DNA of 29,114 nucleotides from a virus, in the IMG/VR virus record IMGVR_UViG_3300042351_000642, positions 1-29,114 of that record. One strand, written 5' to 3'. This document shows, piece after piece, positions 7,800 through 23,354 of the stretch. The translations under genes were made by a program, and so were the position numbers. Below the pieces are notes generated by a model. The model had not been told where the DNA came from. It saw nothing but the letters and a program-made list of their open reading frames with translations, and ran no database searches. How positions within the stretch are numbered: the stretch's first letter is position 1; each line of letters starts with the position of its first letter.

Positions 7800-9386
7800 A
7801 TGGCAGCGAAGAACGTCGATATTAAGATCAACACAACTGCAAGCGGGACAGGCGCGAAGCAGACGGAAGATGGTCTAAAAAAAGTAGGCGAGGAGGCAGA
7901 AAAATCCAGTAAGAAAAGAATCTCTGCCGAAGAAAGAGCGGCACTAAAAGCCGAGCAAGCAGCACAAAAAGCTGCTGATGCAGCAGTTCGGGAGGAACAA
8001 CGAAAGACCGCAGCGACAGAAGCGGAAGCAGCGAAGCGAGTCAAAGCGGAACAAAAAGCTCAAGCGCAAGTAGAACAAGCTACAGCAAAATCAGCAAGTA
8101 GGCGCAGTCAGATGGCTGGGCAAGTTGGATTACAGGCTCAGGACATTGCGGTGCAGGCGCAGATGGGAACGAGCGCGGTCACGATCTTGGCACAGCAAGG
8201 CACGCAGATTGCCAGCATCTTCGGACCGCAGGGAGCCATTGTTGGCGCTCTCATCGGCGTCGGTGCAGTTGCGGCAAAAGTATTCTACGACATGGCTGTG
8301 GCTTCTGCGGTGACAGGCGAGGCGATGGAGGACATGAGCGACAAGCTCAAAGAAGCGTTTGACGATCAGGCGAAGAAATCAATCGAGGACTTCAACGCGC
8401 AGTTGCAAAATCAAACAAACATTGCGCAGTCATTGCGTGAAGTAGAAGTGGACTTGCTAGAAGCACGTTTAGACCGTCAAGAAGCTGACTCATCCATCAT
8501 TGCCTCACAATCAGCTCTGGAAGTGGCTGCTGTAAAATATCTCCAGACCATAGGGCAGACTGTGAACGCTGAAAAGCAACTGGCAGCAATCAGAAAATCA
8601 GAGGCAGAAGCACAAAAGGCTGCACAGATACAAGACATTGAGAATCAAGTGACAGTTGCGCGCGAGCGTTACAAGCAGTATTCAGATCAATATCAAGAAG
8701 TCCAAGGTCAGACCGATCAGGCACAAAAGCGACTTGCTGAACTTGAAAAAAGGCAGCAAGAACTCATGTCATCTTTGAATTTCAGCCGTAGAATGGACGC
8801 GCAAAGCCGAGACGCTGGAACGCTCGGACAAGATGAGACATCTGGCAAAACGAACGCTTTAACAGCGGAGATGGATGCGCTGAAAAAAGAAATAGGCGGC
8901 ATTTACAATATCATCAACAAAGCTCCTGAAAGACTCGCAGAGATCACAAATCAAGCGATTGTTTCAGCATCATCGCTGCAAAATCTAGTTGATGATTCGG
9001 CTTCACAGATTGCAAAGATCAACGAGAAATACAACCTGACGACAAAAGCGCAGGAACTCGGTGCGACGACAGAACTCATCACCAAGGGCGCGGCTGAAAT
9101 CGTCAAAGTCATCAGTGAATTCGATGCAGTGACACCTCTCCAGCAGCAGGCGAAGGCAGAAGCACTAGAAGCAGCAAGCGATGGAGTCATCACTGCACAA
9201 GAACAAATCAAGATTTCTGGCAATCTCAGAACTCTTATGAGTTCGCTCAAAACAGGGCAAGAAGGCAATCTGAAAACGCTACAAGATCTTTTGAAGCTCA
9301 ATGACACGATTGGAGTCAAGATGCAACAAATGTCGAATCAAATCAAAGGTCTAAAAGAAAAGATCAGTAACATCAAAATTTCATAA
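7800..9386 (+). CDS. Tail tape measure protein
   Basis: 528 residues. Sets tail length and is ejected with the DNA. Residues about 25-105 are an Ala/Glu/Lys coiled coil. Residues 107-155 hold the family motif GLQAQDIAVQAQMGTSA..ILAQQGTQIASIFGPQGA followed by a hydrophobic stretch (IVGALIGVGAVAAKVF, about 147-162). The rest is helical and Gln/Glu-rich (about 180-320, 360-528). At about 0.15 nm per residue, 528 residues predict a short tail near 80 nm. The stop overlaps the next start (TAATG). Identity is strong from motif, composition and position. Confidence 0.85.
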   Translation: MAAKNVDIKINTTASGTGAKQTEDGLKKVGEEAEKSSKKRISAEERAALKAEQAAQKAADAAVREEQRKTAATEAEAAKRVKAEQKAQAQVEQATAKSASRRSQMAGQVGLQAQDIAVQAQMGTSAVTILAQQGTQIASIFGPQGAIVGALIGVGAVAAKVFYDMAVASAVTGEAMEDMSDKLKEAFDDQAKKSIEDFNAQLQNQTNIAQSLREVEVDLLEARLDRQEADSSIIASQSALEVAAVKYLQTIGQTVNAEKQLAAIRKSEAEAQKAAQIQDIENQVTVARERYKQYSDQYQEVQGQTDQAQKRLAELEKRQQELMSSLNFSRRMDAQSRDAGTLGQDETSGKTNALTAEMDALKKEIGGIYNIINKAPERLAEITNQAIVSASSLQNLVDDSASQIAKINEKYNLTTKAQELGATTELITKGAAEIVKVISEFDAVTPLQQQAKAEALEAASDGVITAQEQIKISGNLRTLMSSLKTGQEGNLKTLQDLLKLNDTIGVKMQQMSNQIKGLKEKISNIKIS

Positions 9387-11365
9387 TGCCAGTCTGGACC
9401 ATAACAGGAGAAGCAGCAAAAGCTTGGGACACAACGTCCAAGACTCTGGCAGAGCGTGCAGTAGAAAACGCATCGCTCACGTTCCGCAGCGTCGGCACCG
9501 ATGAATTGGTGCTGAACATCTCACCAGAAAACATTGTTAGCTACACGGCGCCGACCTATGCGCAGAGGGTCGATCTTTTCCGCAACGGCACGCGGTTCTT
9601 CACGGGTTACGTCACAAATGTCCGAACGACATCGAACAACTCGATCACGGTCACGATCAGCAATGCCTGGTGGTTCATGGAACGGATCAACTACGTCACG
9701 AGCCAGACCGATGGATCTGGAGCAAGTGCGAATCGACTGACTGGAGTTTTCGGCAATGCAACAAGCGGGACGAATCTCACCACGGCGATACAGACCGCTA
9801 TTGATACGAGCGTTTCACTTGGCGTGCCGATGGCAAACATCACAGGAGGTAGCACGGTCGGGACGTATTTCGACATCCCGCGCGTCACGCTCAACCAGTC
9901 AACGTGCGCACAGGTTATCAGTGAGCTTGTAAGGCTCGTTCCTGACACGATGACCTATTTCGACTATACGAACTCGACTCCGACATTCAACGTCGTCAGG
10001 AGGGCAGCAGCGACCACTCGCACGCTCACGATCGGCACGTCACCCGTTGAGGATTTCGACGTCAACCCGATGATCGAACTGCAAGTATCGCAGGTGGTTC
10101 TACCATACGTCACACGAGACACAAACGGATTGACGAGCTACCAGACGCAATCGTCAGGCACAGCGGCAACGGGCAAGATCCAAGTGCTGACAATCAGCGG
10201 TCCAGAACTCGACACCTTCCTGCCGAGCGAGTATTTCGATTCTGCCACGCTGACAGGATTCCCGCTCGCTACGCAGTTCGAGGATTTCGTTTTATCGTCA
10301 TCGCAATTCGCTGGAGCGGTGGCAAACGGGCTTCGATTTACTAACATCAACATTCAACAGGGGCAGCGGCAATACAGCGGCTACAATTCAGGAAAGGGAC
10401 CAACTACTGGCACTTTCAGTCCGAACGTTCGATCTGTTCAATACACACAGCCAGCGGCATCTATTACCGACGACACGGGACAGCCTGCTTCACTTGGCTC
10501 ACAGTTGATCCTCTCCGACAACTTGCCAGAATGGGCAATTACGGCACACAATCTCAAGCCTATCGTTATCTCTGGACAATGGATTTACGAATGGAAAGAT
10601 CAAGTGTTTGATTTCGGAGATGGGTATGAGCAGAATGAATCATTGCCTCAATGGCTACCTTCATTAACTCGCGAACAAAAGGATTCATATTGGGATGGCG
10701 ATTTCCACTACATTCTGATCGGTGGCGAATACACCGTGCAAGGCTACACGACCAGCAGCTCGACGCTTCCTCACATGTATGGAACCACGCAAACTGGCAC
10801 GACCACGGGAACCTTGATCCTTGCATCGACAGCAAGCTCGATTAACGGCTTTTACACCGGCATGAGAATCGCCTACATGCAGAAGCCAGGGTCAGGAGGA
10901 CCAGACGGAGTAAATGACGTTTGGTATATCGCGACGATCACCGGTTACAACGGCACGACAAAGGCAGCGACATATACGACCTCAACAGGACCAGCGACAA
11001 GATCGGGCTTTCCGTATCGTATTCTCGGCACGAAGGTGTTTGCTCCCGCAGACTACTCTTTCATTTCTCCACCGGCGAACCTCGCGGCAAACTTGCTCAC
11101 AACGATGAATTTTATCCCCTACGAAGGCAGCGTGCGGATCACAGAACAGACGGCAGGCGGCACACGATACCGTGGATGCAAAGTCAACCTTGACAACACA
11201 CGCAGCGAGCTTGCCAGTATGGGAGCCATGGTCGCAGAGGAAACGCTCGACCTCAAGAACGGCACAACAGATTTGACGCTTGGCACTCCACCGAGGCTCG
11301 ACTACCGCAGCTTTACTGACAAAATCCGCAGGACTTCACAAGACAACATCGTTTTCAATCCATGA
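9386..11365 (+). CDS. Baseplate hub / tail-tip protein
   Basis: 659 residues directly after the tape measure. The N-terminal half (VDLFRNGTRFFTGYVTNVRTT, then ITVTISNAWWFMERI, then a helix with CAQVISELVRLVPDTMTYFDY) resembles the gpD/gp27-like hub fold of tail-tip proteins. The C-terminal region NFIPYEGSVRITEQ, then LGTPPRLDYRSFTDKI and RRTSQDNIV, is the end I associate with this type of phage hub. It forms the ring closing the tube and carries fibres. No hydrolase motif was recognised. There is no separate Dit gene before it, so this protein may combine Dit- and Tal-like roles. ATGA-coupled to the next gene. Confidence 0.65.
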   Translation: MPVWTITGEAAKAWDTTSKTLAERAVENASLTFRSVGTDELVLNISPENIVSYTAPTYAQRVDLFRNGTRFFTGYVTNVRTTSNNSITVTISNAWWFMERINYVTSQTDGSGASANRLTGVFGNATSGTNLTTAIQTAIDTSVSLGVPMANITGGSTVGTYFDIPRVTLNQSTCAQVISELVRLVPDTMTYFDYTNSTPTFNVVRRAAATTRTLTIGTSPVEDFDVNPMIELQVSQVVLPYVTRDTNGLTSYQTQSSGTAATGKIQVLTISGPELDTFLPSEYFDSATLTGFPLATQFEDFVLSSSQFAGAVANGLRFTNINIQQGQRQYSGYNSGKGPTTGTFSPNVRSVQYTQPAASITDDTGQPASLGSQLILSDNLPEWAITAHNLKPIVISGQWIYEWKDQVFDFGDGYEQNESLPQWLPSLTREQKDSYWDGDFHYILIGGEYTVQGYTTSSSTLPHMYGTTQTGTTTGTLILASTASSINGFYTGMRIAYMQKPGSGGPDGVNDVWYIATITGYNGTTKAATYTTSTGPATRSGFPYRILGTKVFAPADYSFISPPANLAANLLTTMNFIPYEGSVRITEQTAGGTRYRGCKVNLDNTRSELASMGAMVAEETLDLKNGTTDLTLGTPPRLDYRSFTDKIRRTSQDNIVFNP

Positions 11366-12300
11366 CACAATTTCTTTGCACAGTTGATTCGAACGGAAAC
11401 ATTCTCTGTAATGGCGGCTATGTCGTGGATCTCAAAGCGGCGACAAGCGGAATCTACATCGTGGGCGGAACTCCGACGTCATTACTGACAGCAACCGAGG
11501 ACTTGCGAACAAGCACGAGCGCTGCGCCGATCTTCCTCGGAGGCGGTGGTGGCAATGTCAAATCTTCTGGCACGATCACCGCTACGCTATCCCCAGTCGG
11601 CTGGTTCGGACAAACGGATACCGACGAATGGACCGATTCAGTGGGTAACAAAGTCGTTGCAGATTTCGGAGCAGGCACAGCGGAAATCGTTGACCCGACA
11701 AACACAGCAATCGCTACGTTCTCAGGCTCATTCACTTTCGCGCCGGTCGGCACCTTTACCGCTACAACGTTCGGAGAGGACACATACAACGGAGGCACGG
11801 CATTCACCCTCGACATCAGCTACGACGGCACGAGACGCACCAGCACGGCGAATGTGCTAGTATCGAGAGGCACAGCGCAGGGCGGCGAATATCCGCTGAC
11901 TGGATTTCGCGAATGGGCGAACACAACATGGCTTCTGACCACTAACTCAGACGGCACCGCGCAGATCAATGACGGCACCGATGACGTTGCGACACGATCC
12001 GCTGATTACTCACCCGATTCACCAAGTGGGACATACACATCGACCGCTTACGGTGAGACGACATACGGCGACTCACAGCCATTCAACATGGCGGTCACGC
12101 TCTCACCGGCATTCCCGAAACTTGGATACGTCTATGTCGAGATCGAGAAATCAGGATCGAACTTTACGGCGGTGACTGGTCCGTTCTTTTCGACTTCTCT
12201 ACCTGCTAATAGTTCGACTCTCGAATACGTGCCGATTGCATACAGTGACGGCAGCGGCTTACTAATTCAGATTCACGAAGGCTCAATCTTATGGCGCTAA
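11362..12300 (+). CDS. Tail-tip/receptor-interaction candidate with internal duplication
   Basis: 312 residues, unrecognised. The N-terminal 60 residues (FLCTVDSNGNILCNGGYVV) look like a structural beta cap. After a GGGGG linker (60-64) comes a beta-rich part with two degenerate copies of one unit: GTFTATTFGEDTYNGGTAF (130-148) and GTYTSTAYGETTYGDSQPF (223-241), 93 residues apart. The Thr/Gly/Asp-rich composition and location between hub and fibre suggest a virion surface protein of the tail tip. Its last 10 bases overlap the glycosyltransferase gene, so the two are co-translated. Confidence 0.45.
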   Translation: MTQFLCTVDSNGNILCNGGYVVDLKAATSGIYIVGGTPTSLLTATEDLRTSTSAAPIFLGGGGGNVKSSGTITATLSPVGWFGQTDTDEWTDSVGNKVVADFGAGTAEIVDPTNTAIATFSGSFTFAPVGTFTATTFGEDTYNGGTAFTLDISYDGTRRTSTANVLVSRGTAQGGEYPLTGFREWANTTWLLTTNSDGTAQINDGTDDVATRSADYSPDSPSGTYTSTAYGETTYGDSQPFNMAVTLSPAFPKLGYVYVEIEKSGSNFTAVTGPFFSTSLPANSSTLEYVPIAYSDGSGLLIQIHEGSILWR

Positions 12301-12998
12301 TTCCAGCTTGCATTTTCACCTACTCAGCAGATTCGCTTCCTTTGCGCGAGTGCGTCCGAGGAGCGAAAATCGCAGGACTTCTGCCAGTCGTGATCGACGA
12401 CGCAAAGCACCCGATGGGACATGCCGTCTGGTCATGGGTGGAATCACAAGGCGGCTTGTATTTCCAGAGTGACTTCAATCGCAGGGGCAATCTCAACGGC
12501 ACAGAATGCGCAGCAGGCATCGCAAAATGCTTGTATGAGGCAATGAGGCTCACGCACACGGCGCAGGCATTCAAGCTCGACAGTGACACGATCATTCAGC
12601 GAGTGGACAGCTTCCAAGGCATCAGCACGGGCGTATGCTCAAGCACGATGAACCGGCGCGAAGCTTTCGGCTGTTGCTATTCTCTGACCCGTGATGCAGC
12701 TCGCCGGGTTCGTGATGATCTAGTGGCGATGAATGATCCACACGGACCAGAGGACGTTCTCATCTGGAAATCAATCAAACGTTTGAACATCCGGCATAAG
12801 CTGCACGACTTCAACCCGAGCGGCGGCGCTTTTTCCGCAGTGCCGAAAACATTCGATCCAGTGGACTGTGCGAGGTTCGATGTTCTGACCTTTGGTAATC
12901 CACCATCAGACGGCTGGAAGGATCGAGCGCTTGAAATTACGCTCGCAATGCGGAGATTGAACGACTTCAACTTTAGGCTTGCAAATTCTCAGAAATAA
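12291..12998 (+). CDS. Predicted GT-A type glycosyltransferase in the tail cluster
   Basis: 235 residues. IPACIFTYSADSLPLRECVRG starts like a Rossmann-type GT-A fold. FKLDSDTII places a DxD metal/nucleotide-sugar motif at residues 97-99. GCCYSLTRDAARRV and PHGPEDVLIWKS (Glu/Asp at 154-155) fit the acceptor/catalytic part of GT-A enzymes such as the GT25 style 'Y.LS..AA..' and 'ED' motifs. It would transfer a sugar from an activated donor in the cytoplasm. It overlaps the preceding tail gene by 10 bases and is followed by baseplate and fibre genes, so a virion protein is the natural acceptor candidate. No signal peptide. Fold is fairly likely; substrate unknown. Confidence 0.55.
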   Translation: MALIPACIFTYSADSLPLRECVRGAKIAGLLPVVIDDAKHPMGHAVWSWVESQGGLYFQSDFNRRGNLNGTECAAGIAKCLYEAMRLTHTAQAFKLDSDTIIQRVDSFQGISTGVCSSTMNRREAFGCCYSLTRDAARRVRDDLVAMNDPHGPEDVLIWKSIKRLNIRHKLHDFNPSGGAFSAVPKTFDPVDCARFDVLTFGNPPSDGWKDRALEITLAMRRLNDFNFRLANSQK

Positions 12999-13017: not shown

Positions 13018-13335
13018 ATGTTGCCAATTTACGAAGTATATAAAGGGGAGAACATCTCCATGAGCTTTACCGCTACGCTTGATGGCGCACCTTACAACTT
13101 GACGGGAAAAACCGTGCAGGGAGTCATGCGGTCATCGGTCAATGGTGAAGTGATTCTCAATCTTTCACCGACGATACCGATACCGGCGAACGGAGTGGTT
13201 CTCATCAACGTTTCAACATCCAGCATACCGGCAGGAATTTACGGCGCAGACGTGCAAATCTCGACTAGCACGGTGCCAGTCGTGATTCACCAGTGGACGC
13301 AAAAAATCAGACCAAAATACACCCCGAATTTATGA
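13018..13335 (+). CDS. Small baseplate protein, BppU-N-terminus-like
   Basis: 105 residues, single beta-sandwich. PIYEVYKGENISMSFTATL, then YNLTGKTVQGVMRSS, a short 'PANGVVLINVS' strand and IPAGIYGADVQIS follow the pattern of the N-terminal domain of upper baseplate proteins that attach fibres to the tail tip. The stop overlaps the fibre gene by ATGA, so adaptor and fibre are translationally linked. Leader CCGTCAAAGTC, no Shine-Dalgarno. Confidence 0.55.
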   Translation: MLPIYEVYKGENISMSFTATLDGAPYNLTGKTVQGVMRSSVNGEVILNLSPTIPIPANGVVLINVSTSSIPAGIYGADVQISTSTVPVVIHQWTQKIRPKYTPNL

Positions 13336-15431
13336 GCTTTGACAAAGTAGAAGTCCGCGTGTTCAGCGGTCCGGATCAGGTGCAAGTCGGCAGCAATACC
13401 GAGCCTGATCTCATCGTAATGAACATCGGACCGAAAGGCGATGCAGGAACATCAGCAACAGTAGCAGTCGGCACGACAACGACTGGCAACGCAGGGACAA
13501 ATGCAAGCGTTACAAACAGCGGCACGACTAGCGCGGCGGTGTTTAACTTCACGATCCCAAGGGGCGACACAGGCGCAGCAGGTGCTAGCGGTGGATCATC
13601 GACGGCTTGGAGATACCGAGCAAAAACCAATGCGACCAGCGGTTATCCTACCAACGGTCACTTGCTCTGGAACAACGCTACGCAAACTAGCGCAACGGAA
13701 ATTCTCGTTTCGCACCTCGACGATGAAGGAACTGACGTTGAGCTTTTGCTTTCGTTCTTTGCACAAGATCAAAAAATCTTCATTCAAAATCGTGATGACA
13801 GCTCGCAGAATCAAGTCTGGGAAATTAGCGGAACGCCAACGGTAACGGGTGCCAACACATCGACGGCATACTACACTTTTCCTGTGACTTTGGTATCATC
13901 GGCAGGGGCAGCATTTACAAACAACCACTCGATACTTTTTGGATCAATCGCAGCGTCTGTTAATGCAGTGACAAGCGCAACCACATCGGATGGCACGGCA
14001 AATTTATCAATTGCCGACTTGGAAGTAGTAGGCGGCGAGATTTACACAGACGGTGATTATTCACAAATTTACACGCAGGGGACAGATGCGCATATTTTTA
14101 CGCTTGGATCGGGGGCTGAAATTTTTACCGAAGGCGAACTAGCTCAAATTTACACTACTGGAGCATCAGCGCAAATTTACACAGCAGGAGCGGGAGCGAC
14201 AATTGGCACGCAAGGAGCAAATGCAACGATCTACACTCAAGGCGCAAACGCTACAATTTCAACCGCAGGTTCAGCGGCTCACATCCAGACATCGCACGCA
14301 AGCGCAGCAGTAAAAAGCACCAACTTTGCAGCAGTTGAAAGCGGCGGCGCATCGCTTGTCGATGGCAGTATGCAACCTTGCCTCACTTGGAGTGCAGGAG
14401 GGCGTAACTTAACCATACCAAGCGGGACAGCGACCACCTTTAACACCACAAGCTACACCTACGGCACAGGGTCAGCGGCAGCGCATCGCACGGCATTAGG
14501 GCTTACAACGCTCGCCACGACAACACCAGCAGCAAACGTAGCAAACTTCCTTGAGTTCCCGACCAGCGCAAACCTAGCATCGGCACTCACCGACGAAAAC
14601 GGAACAGGCGGCGGCTTTGTTCGAGCCGAGGGCGCGACTTTGACAACGCCAACTTTCACCGGATCAGCAGCAAGGGCGAACGGACAAAATGCCGTGCCAG
14701 CGACCGATGATGAAATAATCGTGCGCCAAAGGTCAGCAAAAGAATCGTTTTATTCTATCGGAACCGTTAGGAATATCGTTTACCCGCCCTCATTTGGTAC
14801 GAGTGGCACAGGTTCCGCAACCGCAATTACAGATGCGGGCAGCAGGCTTTTCTCACTAAACAGCGGCACGGCAAATAGCGGATGGGCAAGAGCTACATTG
14901 GCACGCGGAGTAAGTGCTGCACCAAACATAACAGGGACTGGAATTAACTACAACAAAAAACTAGGAATTTCAATCGCATTTACCACTGCCAAATCCAATT
15001 TTACTAACACTGGAAACGTTACTCGAATTGTTTTTGGAACAAACCAGACAGCAACCGCTGACGGAGTTGATCCACTTTCTGGTTTAGGTTTCGGCATTGA
15101 GTTTAAAGCCAACGGATCATCGCACGACATAAGAGTTTTTGGACATAACGGATCAAGTATAAATTATTCGGCATGGGTAAATTCTGGGTGTCCGAACTCA
15201 GTTGCATCCGGCGTACATACTCTTGGTGTCGAGTCAGATGGGGCTGGTAACATTTTTGGTTTTTTCGCGGTCAATAGCAGTCGAACACTTGTCACCGTTA
15301 CGGGAACAGGAGGGCCGACTGGAACTGGCACATCCGCAAACAGCTATGTTGACGTTCAATCCAGTAACAGCGCATCATCAACCACGAGTCAATTTGTCAT
15401 TGGATTTGACGCTAAAATTTACGTAGAATAA
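13332..15431 (+). CDS. Long tail fibre with collagen-like and solenoid repeats
   Basis: 699 residues from the ATGA-coupled start at 13332; an in-frame ATG at 13293 lies inside the previous gene and is rejected. Order: N-terminal attachment (1-32); collagen-type GPKGDAGTS (33-41) and IPRGDTGAAGASG (75-87) around a Thr-rich fibre linker; a beta domain (92-210, with HLDDEGTDVELLL and FIQNRDDSSQNQVWEISG) common in fibres of environmental phages; eleven 9-residue repeats (236-334); a spacer with LGLTTLATTTPAANVANFL; a C-terminal beta-sandwich head (about 490-699), probably the receptor-binding tip. No intramolecular chaperone motif was recognised. Confidence 0.8.
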   Translation: MSFDKVEVRVFSGPDQVQVGSNTEPDLIVMNIGPKGDAGTSATVAVGTTTTGNAGTNASVTNSGTTSAAVFNFTIPRGDTGAAGASGGSSTAWRYRAKTNATSGYPTNGHLLWNNATQTSATEILVSHLDDEGTDVELLLSFFAQDQKIFIQNRDDSSQNQVWEISGTPTVTGANTSTAYYTFPVTLVSSAGAAFTNNHSILFGSIAASVNAVTSATTSDGTANLSIADLEVVGGEIYTDGDYSQIYTQGTDAHIFTLGSGAEIFTEGELAQIYTTGASAQIYTAGAGATIGTQGANATIYTQGANATISTAGSAAHIQTSHASAAVKSTNFAAVESGGASLVDGSMQPCLTWSAGGRNLTIPSGTATTFNTTSYTYGTGSAAAHRTALGLTTLATTTPAANVANFLEFPTSANLASALTDENGTGGGFVRAEGATLTTPTFTGSAARANGQNAVPATDDEIIVRQRSAKESFYSIGTVRNIVYPPSFGTSGTGSATAITDAGSRLFSLNSGTANSGWARATLARGVSAAPNITGTGINYNKKLGISIAFTTAKSNFTNTGNVTRIVFGTNQTATADGVDPLSGLGFGIEFKANGSSHDIRVFGHNGSSINYSAWVNSGCPNSVASGVHTLGVESDGAGNIFGFFAVNSSRTLVTVTGTGGPTGTGTSANSYVDVQSSNSASSTTSQFVIGFDAKIYVE
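14037..14333 (+). repeat. Eleven 27-bp coding repeats (9-residue solenoid units)
   Basis: Inside the fibre gene, 297 bases equal 11 units of 27. The protein unit is x-I-x-T-x-G-x-x-A, for example QIYTQGTDA, EIFTEGELA, QIYTTGASA and TIYTQGANA; the last two units are degenerate. The first eight units keep Ile, Thr and Gly almost without exception. DNA copies are diverged, so the repeat is old and under protein-level selection. Confidence 0.85.
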
Positions 15432-19706: not shown

Positions 19707-20477
19707 ATGACAACAGAAAATACACAAATTGCCAAGCCTCGGACACTCAAAGGATTACTCTCCGAGGATAACGTCAAAAACCAGTTCGCGCTGGCATTGC
19801 CAAAGCACCTGAGCGCAGACCGCTTCGCTCGCGTTGCAATCACCGCGCTGACACGCACGCCGAAGTTGCAGGAATGCACGCCTGAAAGCTTTATGCGTTG
19901 CTTGCTTGATCTTTCCGCGCTCGGAATCGAACCAGACGGTCGCCGCGCGCATCTGATCCCCTACGGCAAGGAATGCACTCTCATTCTCGACTACAAAGGC
20001 ATTGCCGAACTGGTCATGCGCAGCGGGACGGTCACGAGCATCCATGCCGACAAGGTGTGCGAGCAAGATCAATTCGTCGTCAATCGCGGCAAGATCGAAC
20101 AGCATGTCGTTGACTACAAAGGAGCGCGAGGCAATGCCTACGCTTTCTATGTCATCGTGACATTCAAAGACGGATCGGAAAAGTGCGAGGTAATGACGCG
20201 GGATGAGGTCGAATGCATCCGCAAGCGATCCCGCGCCGGTCAGTCTGGACCGTGGGTGTCAGACTTCGACGAGATGGCAAAAAAGACAGTATTTCGCCGC
20301 GCATCAAAATGGCTCCCGCTCTCGCCTGAGATCCAAGACGCGATCCGCACCGATGAAGATCGTGAGTTTGCACAAGCTCGCAACGTCACTCCGACCGTGC
20401 GCACGGAAGCAATCAATCCGTTCGCGCCAATGCTGCCAGCGATCGAAGCCACGACCGAGGAAGGAGGTGAGGCATGA
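19707..20477 (+). CDS. recT: RecT-family single-strand annealing protein
   Basis: 256 residues. Anneals complementary single strands during phage recombination, working with a 5'-3' exonuclease. Family hallmarks are RVAITALTRTPKLQECTPES (about 42-61), LSALGIEPDGRRAHLIPYG, CTLILDYKGIAELVMRSG, FYVIVTFKDGSEKCEVMTRDEV and the DFDEMAKKTVFRRASKWLP helix near 190-208. Length is usual for RecT. Pro-rich acidic tail. The YqaJ-type exonuclease lies three genes downstream. Strong assignment. Confidence 0.92.
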   Translation: MTTENTQIAKPRTLKGLLSEDNVKNQFALALPKHLSADRFARVAITALTRTPKLQECTPESFMRCLLDLSALGIEPDGRRAHLIPYGKECTLILDYKGIAELVMRSGTVTSIHADKVCEQDQFVVNRGKIEQHVVDYKGARGNAYAFYVIVTFKDGSEKCEVMTRDEVECIRKRSRAGQSGPWVSDFDEMAKKTVFRRASKWLPLSPEIQDAIRTDEDREFAQARNVTPTVRTEAINPFAPMLPAIEATTEEGGEA

Positions 20478-20650: not shown

Positions 20651-20853
20651 TCGAGATTGACGATGGCGGCTTGGCGTTTCCGTCAGAATATTACGCTGAA
20701 CAAGGAATGACTCTGCGCGACTACTTCGCGGCGGCGGCTTTTCAGGGATTGCTGATAAATGGACATCACAAAAACGTCAGGTATTCTTTCATCGCCGAAG
20801 ATGCTTACAAGCTCGCAGACGCAATGATCGAAGCCAGAAAGGGGGATGCATGA
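20647..20853 (+). CDS. Small phage protein with 'MTLRDYFAA' motif, GTG start
   Basis: 68 residues. The GTG at 20647 overlaps the preceding stop (GTGA), and GAAAGTGAGGTGAC upstream contains a weak Shine-Dalgarno. GMTLRDYFAAAAFQGLL and AEDAYKLADAMIEARK are the two conserved blocks of a widespread small phage/prophage family of unknown function, usually near recombination or early genes. ATGA overlap with the exonuclease gene. Confidence 0.6.
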   Translation: MIEIDDGGLAFPSEYYAEQGMTLRDYFAAAAFQGLLINGHHKNVRYSFIAEDAYKLADAMIEARKGDA

Positions 20854-21476
20854 ACTACCACATCGTCAACCTCGACCAAGGCACTGAGGAGTGGCTCAAC
20901 GCTCGCAAGGGCAAATTGACGGCATCGCAGGCGGCAGGTATCATCACGCCGACAGGCAAGCTCGCAGCGGCATCGAAGGGACTCATGCGCAAGCTGGCGC
21001 GGGAATGCCTGCTGGACGATCCTCACGCCTTCGCCGGCAACGCAGCGACACAGTGGGGGCATGACCATGAGCCTATCGCTCGCTTGCTCTTTGAGGAGAT
21101 CACCGGTCACGCAGTCGATACCGTGGGCATGTTGCAATCTACTTTGCACCCATGCTTGGCTTGCTCGCCTGACGGGCTTTTCATGATCGACGAAGTTGTT
21201 CACGGGCTGGAGATCAAGTGTCCGAGCGTGGACACGCATGTCGACTACTTGCTCGACGGTGAGCTACCCGCCAAGTATCTCCCGCAGGTTCACTTCTCGA
21301 TGGCAATCACGGGTATCAAGACGTGGTATTTCATGTCGTTCTTCCCGGGGCTTCGACCGCTGATCCTGCCAGTGTATTGGGACGAATACACTGACAAAAT
21401 CAAGCTCGCCGCGCTCACATTCGCATCGGAATACGAGCAAGAAATGCCGAGAATCCTTAACGCGATCAGATTGTAA
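20850..21476 (+). CDS. YqaJ-type viral recombinase exonuclease (PD-(D/E)XK)
   Basis: 208 residues. Resects one strand of duplex ends to feed RecT. Motifs: QGTEEWLNARKGKLTAS (10-25), GHDHEP (70-75, Glu74), LACSPDGL (103-110, Asp108), GLEIKCPS (119-126, Glu121 and Lys123, the E-x-K of the active site) and YLPQVHFSMAITG (143-155, Gln146). All core catalytic positions are intact. Length is typical of the family. GGGGGATGC just before the ATG gives a Shine-Dalgarno. Confidence 0.92.
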   Translation: MNYHIVNLDQGTEEWLNARKGKLTASQAAGIITPTGKLAAASKGLMRKLARECLLDDPHAFAGNAATQWGHDHEPIARLLFEEITGHAVDTVGMLQSTLHPCLACSPDGLFMIDEVVHGLEIKCPSVDTHVDYLLDGELPAKYLPQVHFSMAITGIKTWYFMSFFPGLRPLILPVYWDEYTDKIKLAALTFASEYEQEMPRILNAIRL

Positions 21477-22061: not shown

Positions 22062-22557
22062 ATTAGACATAATCATCGGCATTGATAACGGCATCAGCGG
22101 CGCGTTGGTGGCTATCTCAACGCACCACGGGCTAGTCATCGACAAAATACTCATGCCGACACGACCCAGTGACAGAAGCAGGGAGTGTGACGCATCGGAA
22201 GTCTGCGAGTGGATCGAGCGATTTACCCGCACCGACGACATCGCCGTTGCGCTCGAAACGCCATCAAAACACTCGCCCGGCACACTTGCGCTTTGCTCGA
22301 TGTGGGACTGCTACGGAGCCATCCGCGGCATACTCGAATCATGCGGTATAAAGCACGTCAGAATCGCGCCTAGGACATGGCAGAGCGTCATACTGGGTGT
22401 CGTGCCGAAAGGCGAGACAAAAGCGTATGCAAGGGCAAAAGCGCGCGAAATATGGCCTGATGAGGATTGGCTCGCCACACCGCGCAGCAAGAAGGCTCAC
22501 GAAGGATTTATCGACGCGGCATTGATCGCGGAATTTTACAGAAGAAAACTACTATGA
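22048..22557 (+). CDS. RuvC-like Holliday junction resolvase
   Basis: 169 residues. RNase H-fold nuclease that cuts four-way junctions made in recombination and replication. IIIGIDNGISGALV (8-21) supplies Asp13, VALETP (67-72) Glu70, and AHEGFIDAALIAEF (150-163) the final acidic residues including Asp156, the pattern of phage RuvC-like enzymes. IAPRTWQSVILG fits the conserved central helix. Length matches the family. It completes an SSB/RecT/exonuclease/resolvase set. Confidence 0.82.
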   Translation: MNYDKLDIIIGIDNGISGALVAISTHHGLVIDKILMPTRPSDRSRECDASEVCEWIERFTRTDDIAVALETPSKHSPGTLALCSMWDCYGAIRGILESCGIKHVRIAPRTWQSVILGVVPKGETKAYARAKAREIWPDEDWLATPRSKKAHEGFIDAALIAEFYRRKLL

Positions 22558-23354
22558 TATTAAAGAATATGAATGAAGAAATACCACAGCAAAAAAAAAT
22601 CAAACATGAAATTTACAATGACCATTTCCAGAATTACAAACGCCACAATATACCGAAGGCGCAACTAGTAATAGCTGATATTCCTTACAATATCGGAATC
22701 AATGCTTATGGGAGCAACCCCGCATGGTATGAGGGCGGTGATAACAAGAACGGAGAAAGCGCATTGGCTGGCAAAGAGTTTTTTGATACCGACAAAGATT
22801 TTCGCATATCAGAGTTTTTGCATTTTTGCAGTCGCATGTTAAAGCCTGAGGACAAAAAAAAGACGGGAGTTGCACCCTGTATGATTGTTTTTTGCGCTTT
22901 TGACCAGCAAATGGAAATCATCGAAAAAGCTAAAGAGCATGGATTTATGAATTACATAAATCTCGTATTTGTGAAAAACTTTTCTGCACAAGTATTGAAA
23001 GCAAATATGCGAGTTGTTGGAAACTGTGAATACGGCTTGATTCTCTACCGTGACAAATTGCCAAAATTTAACAACAATGGAAAAATGATTTTTAACGCCA
23101 TGGACTGGCCACGAGATAATGAAAGTGAAAAAATTCACCCTACGCAAAAGCCAGTATTGCTCCTAAAACGTCTGATCGGACTATTTACAGATGAGGGAGA
23201 TGTTGTCATTGACCCATGCTGCGGAAGCGGATCAACAATCGTAGCCGCACATCACAGCAATCGTTCAGCCTACGGATTTGAAATTAAGAAGAATTTTCAC
23301 AAGGCGGCTGTTGAATGGCTTCAACATGAAAAAGCACAGCTAACACTTTTCTAA
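22554..23354 (+). CDS. Adenine-type DNA methyltransferase, beta-class order
   Basis: 266 residues from the ATGA-overlap start at 22554 (MILKNMNEEIP); ATG at 22569 is also possible. Catalytic motif IV is ADIPYNIG (41-48, the 'DPPY' site in DIPY form) and comes before the AdoMet site DPCCGSGST (220-228), the order of N6-adenine/N4-cytosine beta-class enzymes. HPTQKPVLLLKRLI (195-208) is also typical. No restriction enzyme gene adjoins, so it is probably an orphan enzyme protecting phage DNA or affecting expression. Clearly A+T-richer than the neighbours to its left, with many AAA/TTT codons, suggesting separate acquisition. Confidence 0.88.
   Translation: MILKNMNEEIPQQKKIKHEIYNDHFQNYKRHNIPKAQLVIADIPYNIGINAYGSNPAWYEGGDNKNGESALAGKEFFDTDKDFRISEFLHFCSRMLKPEDKKKTGVAPCMIVFCAFDQQMEIIEKAKEHGFMNYINLVFVKNFSAQVLKANMRVVGNCEYGLILYRDKLPKFNNNGKMIFNAMDWPRDNESEKIHPTQKPVLLLKRLIGLFTDEGDVVIDPCCGSGSTIVAAHHSNRSAYGFEIKKNFHKAAVEWLQHEKAQLTLF

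Follow-up and report, generated by a model that had tools for sequence, protein, structure and literature searches.

Organization of the locus

The window (the whole stretch of DNA analyzed, 29,114 nucleotides of IMG/VR virus record IMGVR_UViG_3300042351_000642) contains a siphovirus-type structural operon, in which a Mu-type portal, a protease, a major head protein, two tail-tube-like genes and a tape measure are followed by hub-like, tip-like, glycosyltransferase-like (GT), small adaptor-like and fibre-like genes. Of these names, those of the portal, the protease, the head protein and the tape measure are backed by database matches; the names tail tube, hub, tip, adaptor and fibre reflect gene position. 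The genes from the tape measure to the fibre-like gene lie on the + strand. The tape measure protein (7800-9386) matched phrog_8892 (E 3e-11) and TMP_2. Next to it is the tail hub-like gene (9386-11365, 659 aa), homologous to a protein of 700-735 aa upstream of the GT gene in Akkermansia phages, and then a T-rich distal tail (tip-like) gene (11362-12300, 312 aa), whose stop codon falls within the start of the GT gene. The tape measure showed 27 to 98% identity between phages whose neighboring tail genes were more than 90% identical, which suggests module exchange. The window also encodes a RecT and YqaJ-type exonuclease recombination pair (19707-20477 and 20850-21476) and a phage N6/N4 DNA methylase (22545-23354).

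The GT gene itself (12291-12998) has an ATG start and encodes 235 aa. A sequence-only reading of the window had reported this ORF, its 10-base overlap with the tail-tip gene and a GPEDVLIW motif at residues 152-159, and we found all three as described; the DSDT motif that it placed at residues 96-99 lies one residue later, at 97-100. Downstream are the adaptor-like gene (13018-13335, 105 aa), with a weak match to phrog_1084, whose function is not assigned in PHROGs, and the fibre-like gene (13332-15431, 699 aa), which is S/T/G-rich, contains collagen-like G-x-y stretches and is hypervariable among relatives. The sequence-only reading had likewise placed the GT gene before adaptor and fibre; these two names are positional only, and both ORFs match only PHROGs of unknown function.

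Strong purifying selection acts on the GT gene (dN/dS 0.05-0.10 against homologues 80-96% identical), and the same six residues are found even in diverse relatives at about 20-40% identity. The ORF is therefore a real gene.

Distribution and conservation of the family

More than 50 homologues of the 235-aa protein were detected. All those with a known host belong to Verrucomicrobiota, including inducible Akkermansia prophages. IMG/VR contained 11 related loci in a direct search and 43 in an alignment search. In addition, nine bacterial-genome contigs carried relatives, all from Verrucomicrobiaceae, Akkermansia or Akkermansiaceae, and many relatives are located in prophages of Akkermansia genomes. 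Of 387 genomes sampled from the phylum to which an Akkermansia genome belongs, 18 matched the family profile at E <= 0.01, several of them with four to seven matches; the weakest matches in these 18 genomes were GT31-type proteins rather than family members. Three named Akkermansia phages (Chambord, Chantilly and DTMo-2021a) encode unannotated homologues (e.g., WAK79013) that share 28-31% identity with our protein and whose genes come immediately behind the tail hub gene. Of these phages, Chambord and Chantilly are listed in PMC10197239 as prophages induced from a mouse gut consortium.

An alignment of 50 members (A4), reaching about 18-25% identity, contained only six invariant positions (D37, R64, K95, D97, D99 and E154); P41, G66, N67, L68, G70, G76, G127, Y130 and D155 were nearly invariant. 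Based on the family alignment and on the profile matches to GT31 and GT2 with their controls, the motifs of the protein are GNLNG (66-70), a DXD within K95-x-D97-x-D99, and E154-D155 (ED). Four proteins from Akkermansia genomes (L086, L110, L111 and L112) were kept out of A4 because their active-site motifs are lost, and the invariance count thus holds for members with intact motifs. These proteins represent a second, degenerate paralogue that lacks both GNLNG and DXD and is located 7-15 kb from the intact copy in several genomes; it is possibly a pseudo-enzyme with another role.

Relationship to known glycosyltransferases

Neither single-member nor alignment searches linked any member to a Pfam or PHROGs family, none of 37 members matched the PF01762 Galactosyl_T model, and the family had no single significant match in PDB. 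A Kazal_3 match (E 0.09) covered 20 residues and was dismissed. The assignment to the GT-A class comes from sequence-profile comparison by hhalign, whose E-values apply to single pairs only, with templates collected as families from the same phylum (GT31, GT2, GT-B, nucleotidyltransferase and methyltransferase). With a smaller alignment (A3), E was 7e-5 for GT31 and 4e-4 for GT2; with the 50-member A4, GT31 improved to 1.6e-6 and GT2 weakened to 0.003. The control families gave 0.10 (methyltransferase), 0.43 (nucleotidyltransferase) and 0.49 (GT-B), the reversed family 0.11 or worse, and the best of 60 column shuffles 0.065 for GT31 and 0.075 for GT2. Two or more orders of magnitude therefore separate GT31, and in the smaller alignment also GT2, from all controls. 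The GT31 alignment runs from DXD to ED with both motifs in register, and the GT2 alignment from the N-terminal half to DXD; jointly, they thus cover much of a GT-A domain.

Searching whole genomes with the family profile yielded 11 weak matches outside the family (E 2e-4 to 9e-3, ORFs of 589-1252 aa). Eight of them overlapped PF01762 Galactosyl_T found independently, scanning Pfam directly confirmed a ninth (L077), and the remaining two are from genomes apparently outside the PF01762 sample; PF01762 was found in none of 14 control genomes. Verrucomicrobial proteins of 600-800 aa at L077 (289-2757) and L087 (259-2154) combine an N-terminal Gly_transf_sug/Gb3_synth-like region with a C-terminal GT31 region, and are possible two-domain glycosyltransferases. 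In a PDB profile search, the best of 177,635 sequences was C1GalT1 (7q4i, GT31), with DXD and ED in register with the family at an E-value, 0.26, that is not significant alone.

The protein is very probably a glycosyltransferase of the GT-A class, as judged from these profiles. This part of the sequence-only reading gains from a profile kinship above the null controls and from an intact active-site pattern (D97 and D99 were kept in 50 of 50 A4 sequences), although no Pfam, PHROGs or PDB match was significant. In the family, K-x-D-x-D-T, G-x-x-Y-x-L-S and G/P-E-D follow one another as they do in GT31/PF01762 proteins (e.g., C1GalT1 7q4i), with similar spacing, and its residues (D-S-D-T, G-C-C-Y-S-L and P-E-D) agree only partly with the GT31 motifs (DDD-type DXD, GG-x-GY-x-(L/M)S and ED). 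However, it differs from GT31 in having no Pfam match, in an N-terminal half and GNLNG motif that do not align, and in being a stand-alone phage protein of 235 aa. The N-terminal half aligns with GT2/PF00535 (E 4e-4 to 3e-3), running through a V-x-DD strand as far as the DXD aspartates, whereas the C-terminal half does not align and a Pfam match is again absent. By sequence, the family lies outside GT31 as Pfam defines it. It is a family absent from the libraries searched here, and its probable kind of function is already known from mycobacteriophage virion glycosylation.

Neighborhood of the gene in different phages

Close relatives keep the order hub, tip, GT, adaptor and fibre, and in most loci the GT start overlaps the stop of the upstream distal-tail gene by 4, 10 or up to 16 nt. 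In Akkermansia phages, the hub homologue of 700-735 aa is located directly 5' of the GT gene; hhalign matched the 659-aa hub to it with E 9e-11 for the Chambord type and 7e-9 for a second type. Unlike in the window, neither a tip nor an adaptor was recognized as a gene of its own in these phages, and the gene next after the GT gene in the Chambord type is tape-measure-like. Two more divergent loci (L054 and L062) carry a tandem pair of family members after tail genes, and their upstream proteins were not recognizable by hhalign as the same hub. Almost every architecture thus has a hub or tip gene ahead of the GT gene, but adaptor and fibre are not shared, which makes the upstream distal-tail gene the most constant neighbor.

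We also identified eight related contigs that have hub, tip and adaptor and lack the GT gene; they represent seven lineages, L283 and L284 being nearly identical to each other. In these relatives the adaptor directly follows the tip, with an estimated start 51-83 bases past the tip stop, too close for another gene to fit into the slot. The eight records, possibly fragmentary, contained no family member at any other place. Trees for the hub and for a tail-tube-like protein required five and four presence changes, respectively, and at least three are forced by well supported branches. The GT gene is therefore an accessory gene with three to five gains or losses at a fixed slot, and it is not needed for tail building.

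Discussion

Our preferred explanation, which we consider somewhat better than even, is that the gene encodes a soluble, GT31-like GT-A enzyme, expressed late and coupled to the distal-tail gene, that glycosylates the hub or tip as an optional tuning module. The conserved place in the tail operon argues for such a virion-directed role. With regard to donor sugar, acceptor and benefit, we infer the following. The enzyme, soluble and closest in sequence to GT31, would depend on a metal and a sugar nucleotide; a host nucleotide sugar would be bound with a divalent metal at D97/D99, and E154/D155 would form part of the catalytic site. Expression would be late and translation coupled to the upstream distal-tail gene, and the sugar would be added to that phage's own hub or tip protein, made just before, ahead of or during tail assembly. 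Gain and loss of the gene at a fixed slot suggests that the sugar would adjust tail-tip properties (adsorption, stability or defense evasion) and be dispensable for building the tip.

The sequence-only reading had proposed that the enzyme acts on tail or fibre. Tail remains the better candidate, and fibre is weaker than the upstream distal-tail protein because adaptor and fibre are not common to the different architectures. We set aside the fibre as the common partner, since no fibre gene was recognized beside the GT gene in Akkermansia phages. The main acceptor candidate would be the tip-like protein (11362-12300), followed by the hub-like protein (9386-11365), with the fibre less likely. S and T content is similar in tip (26%), hub (23%) and fibre (25%), so composition does not single out an acceptor. 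The earlier suggestion of an effect on receptor choice or immune evasion is speculative.

Several other functions could be considered. Phage glycosyltransferases of the Gtr kind modify the host surface (seroconversion), and an enzyme of this locus could likewise act on, e.g., LPS or capsule, either during lysogeny or at a late stage of infection, blocking superinfection or helping progeny release. That relatives are often Akkermansia prophages fits this precedent, and a late operon position could equally serve a surface target. However, the gene is embedded in the tail operon, where it overlaps a tail gene and is away from attachment/integrase genes, it adjoins neither a flippase nor a membrane partner, its product has no obvious membrane segment when the sequence is read by eye, and it tracks the distal-tail gene through otherwise different tail architectures; we regard a host-surface target as unlikely. 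Slightly less credible is a protein that kept the GT-A fold as a non-enzymatic virion part, binding a sugar or nucleotide at the tail tip. A location among distal-tail genes would suit such a part, and degenerate paralogues without DXD and GNL in some Akkermansia prophages indicate that non-catalytic members may exist, but the DXD and the ED glutamate are invariant in 50 diverse members, and relatives without the GT gene retain the remaining tail operon, implying that the protein is no obligatory structural part.

It is improbable that the protein is no glycosyltransferase at all and that its DSDT and PED motifs arose by chance. Single-sequence searches without a significant match to known glycosyltransferase families are what this explanation would predict, whereas the distance of the GT31 and (smaller alignment) GT2 profiles from the controls and the invariance pattern of the six residues speak against it. 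Glycosylation of modified bases in phage DNA is the least probable function: phages such as T4 do encode DNA glycosyltransferases, but among the window proteins scanned no hydroxymethylated-base pathway was found, only the N6/N4 DNA methylase, and the gene is placed in the tail operon.

Glycosylation of the phage's own distal tail, which we favor, has a partial parallel in mycobacteriophages: according to work cited in PMC12363180 and PMC11256854, these phages are reported to glycosylate the capsid and tail tube of their own particles. Mycobacteriophage Che8 also encodes glycosyltransferases (gp108-110). Unlike the present family, these match GT2 and GT25 and are located near the right end of the genome, outside the tail operon, and gp109 and gp110 gave no profile match to the family (E 0.097 and 0.25, with single-sequence templates). 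We therefore regard ours as a separate enzyme, encoded elsewhere in the phage genome, whose purpose may be similar. A literature search on glycosyltransferases in phage tail modules returned nothing about this family.

A broader proposal, which we advance tentatively and with slightly less than even confidence, is that these proteins are an undescribed GT-A family specialized in glycosylating the distal tail tips of Verrucomicrobiota phages, including those of gut Akkermansia, and that the gene is swapped at one slot as a switchable modification of receptor binding. Self-glycosylation of particles is documented for few phage systems, and mycobacteriophages are those found here. Inducible prophages of the gut bacterium Akkermansia carry members of this enzyme family. 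If our interpretation is true, proteins now listed as hypothetical would gain a name, and a tail-tip enzyme at a slot that occurs with and without it would allow the part that tail glycans play in adsorption to be tested directly on natural pairs.
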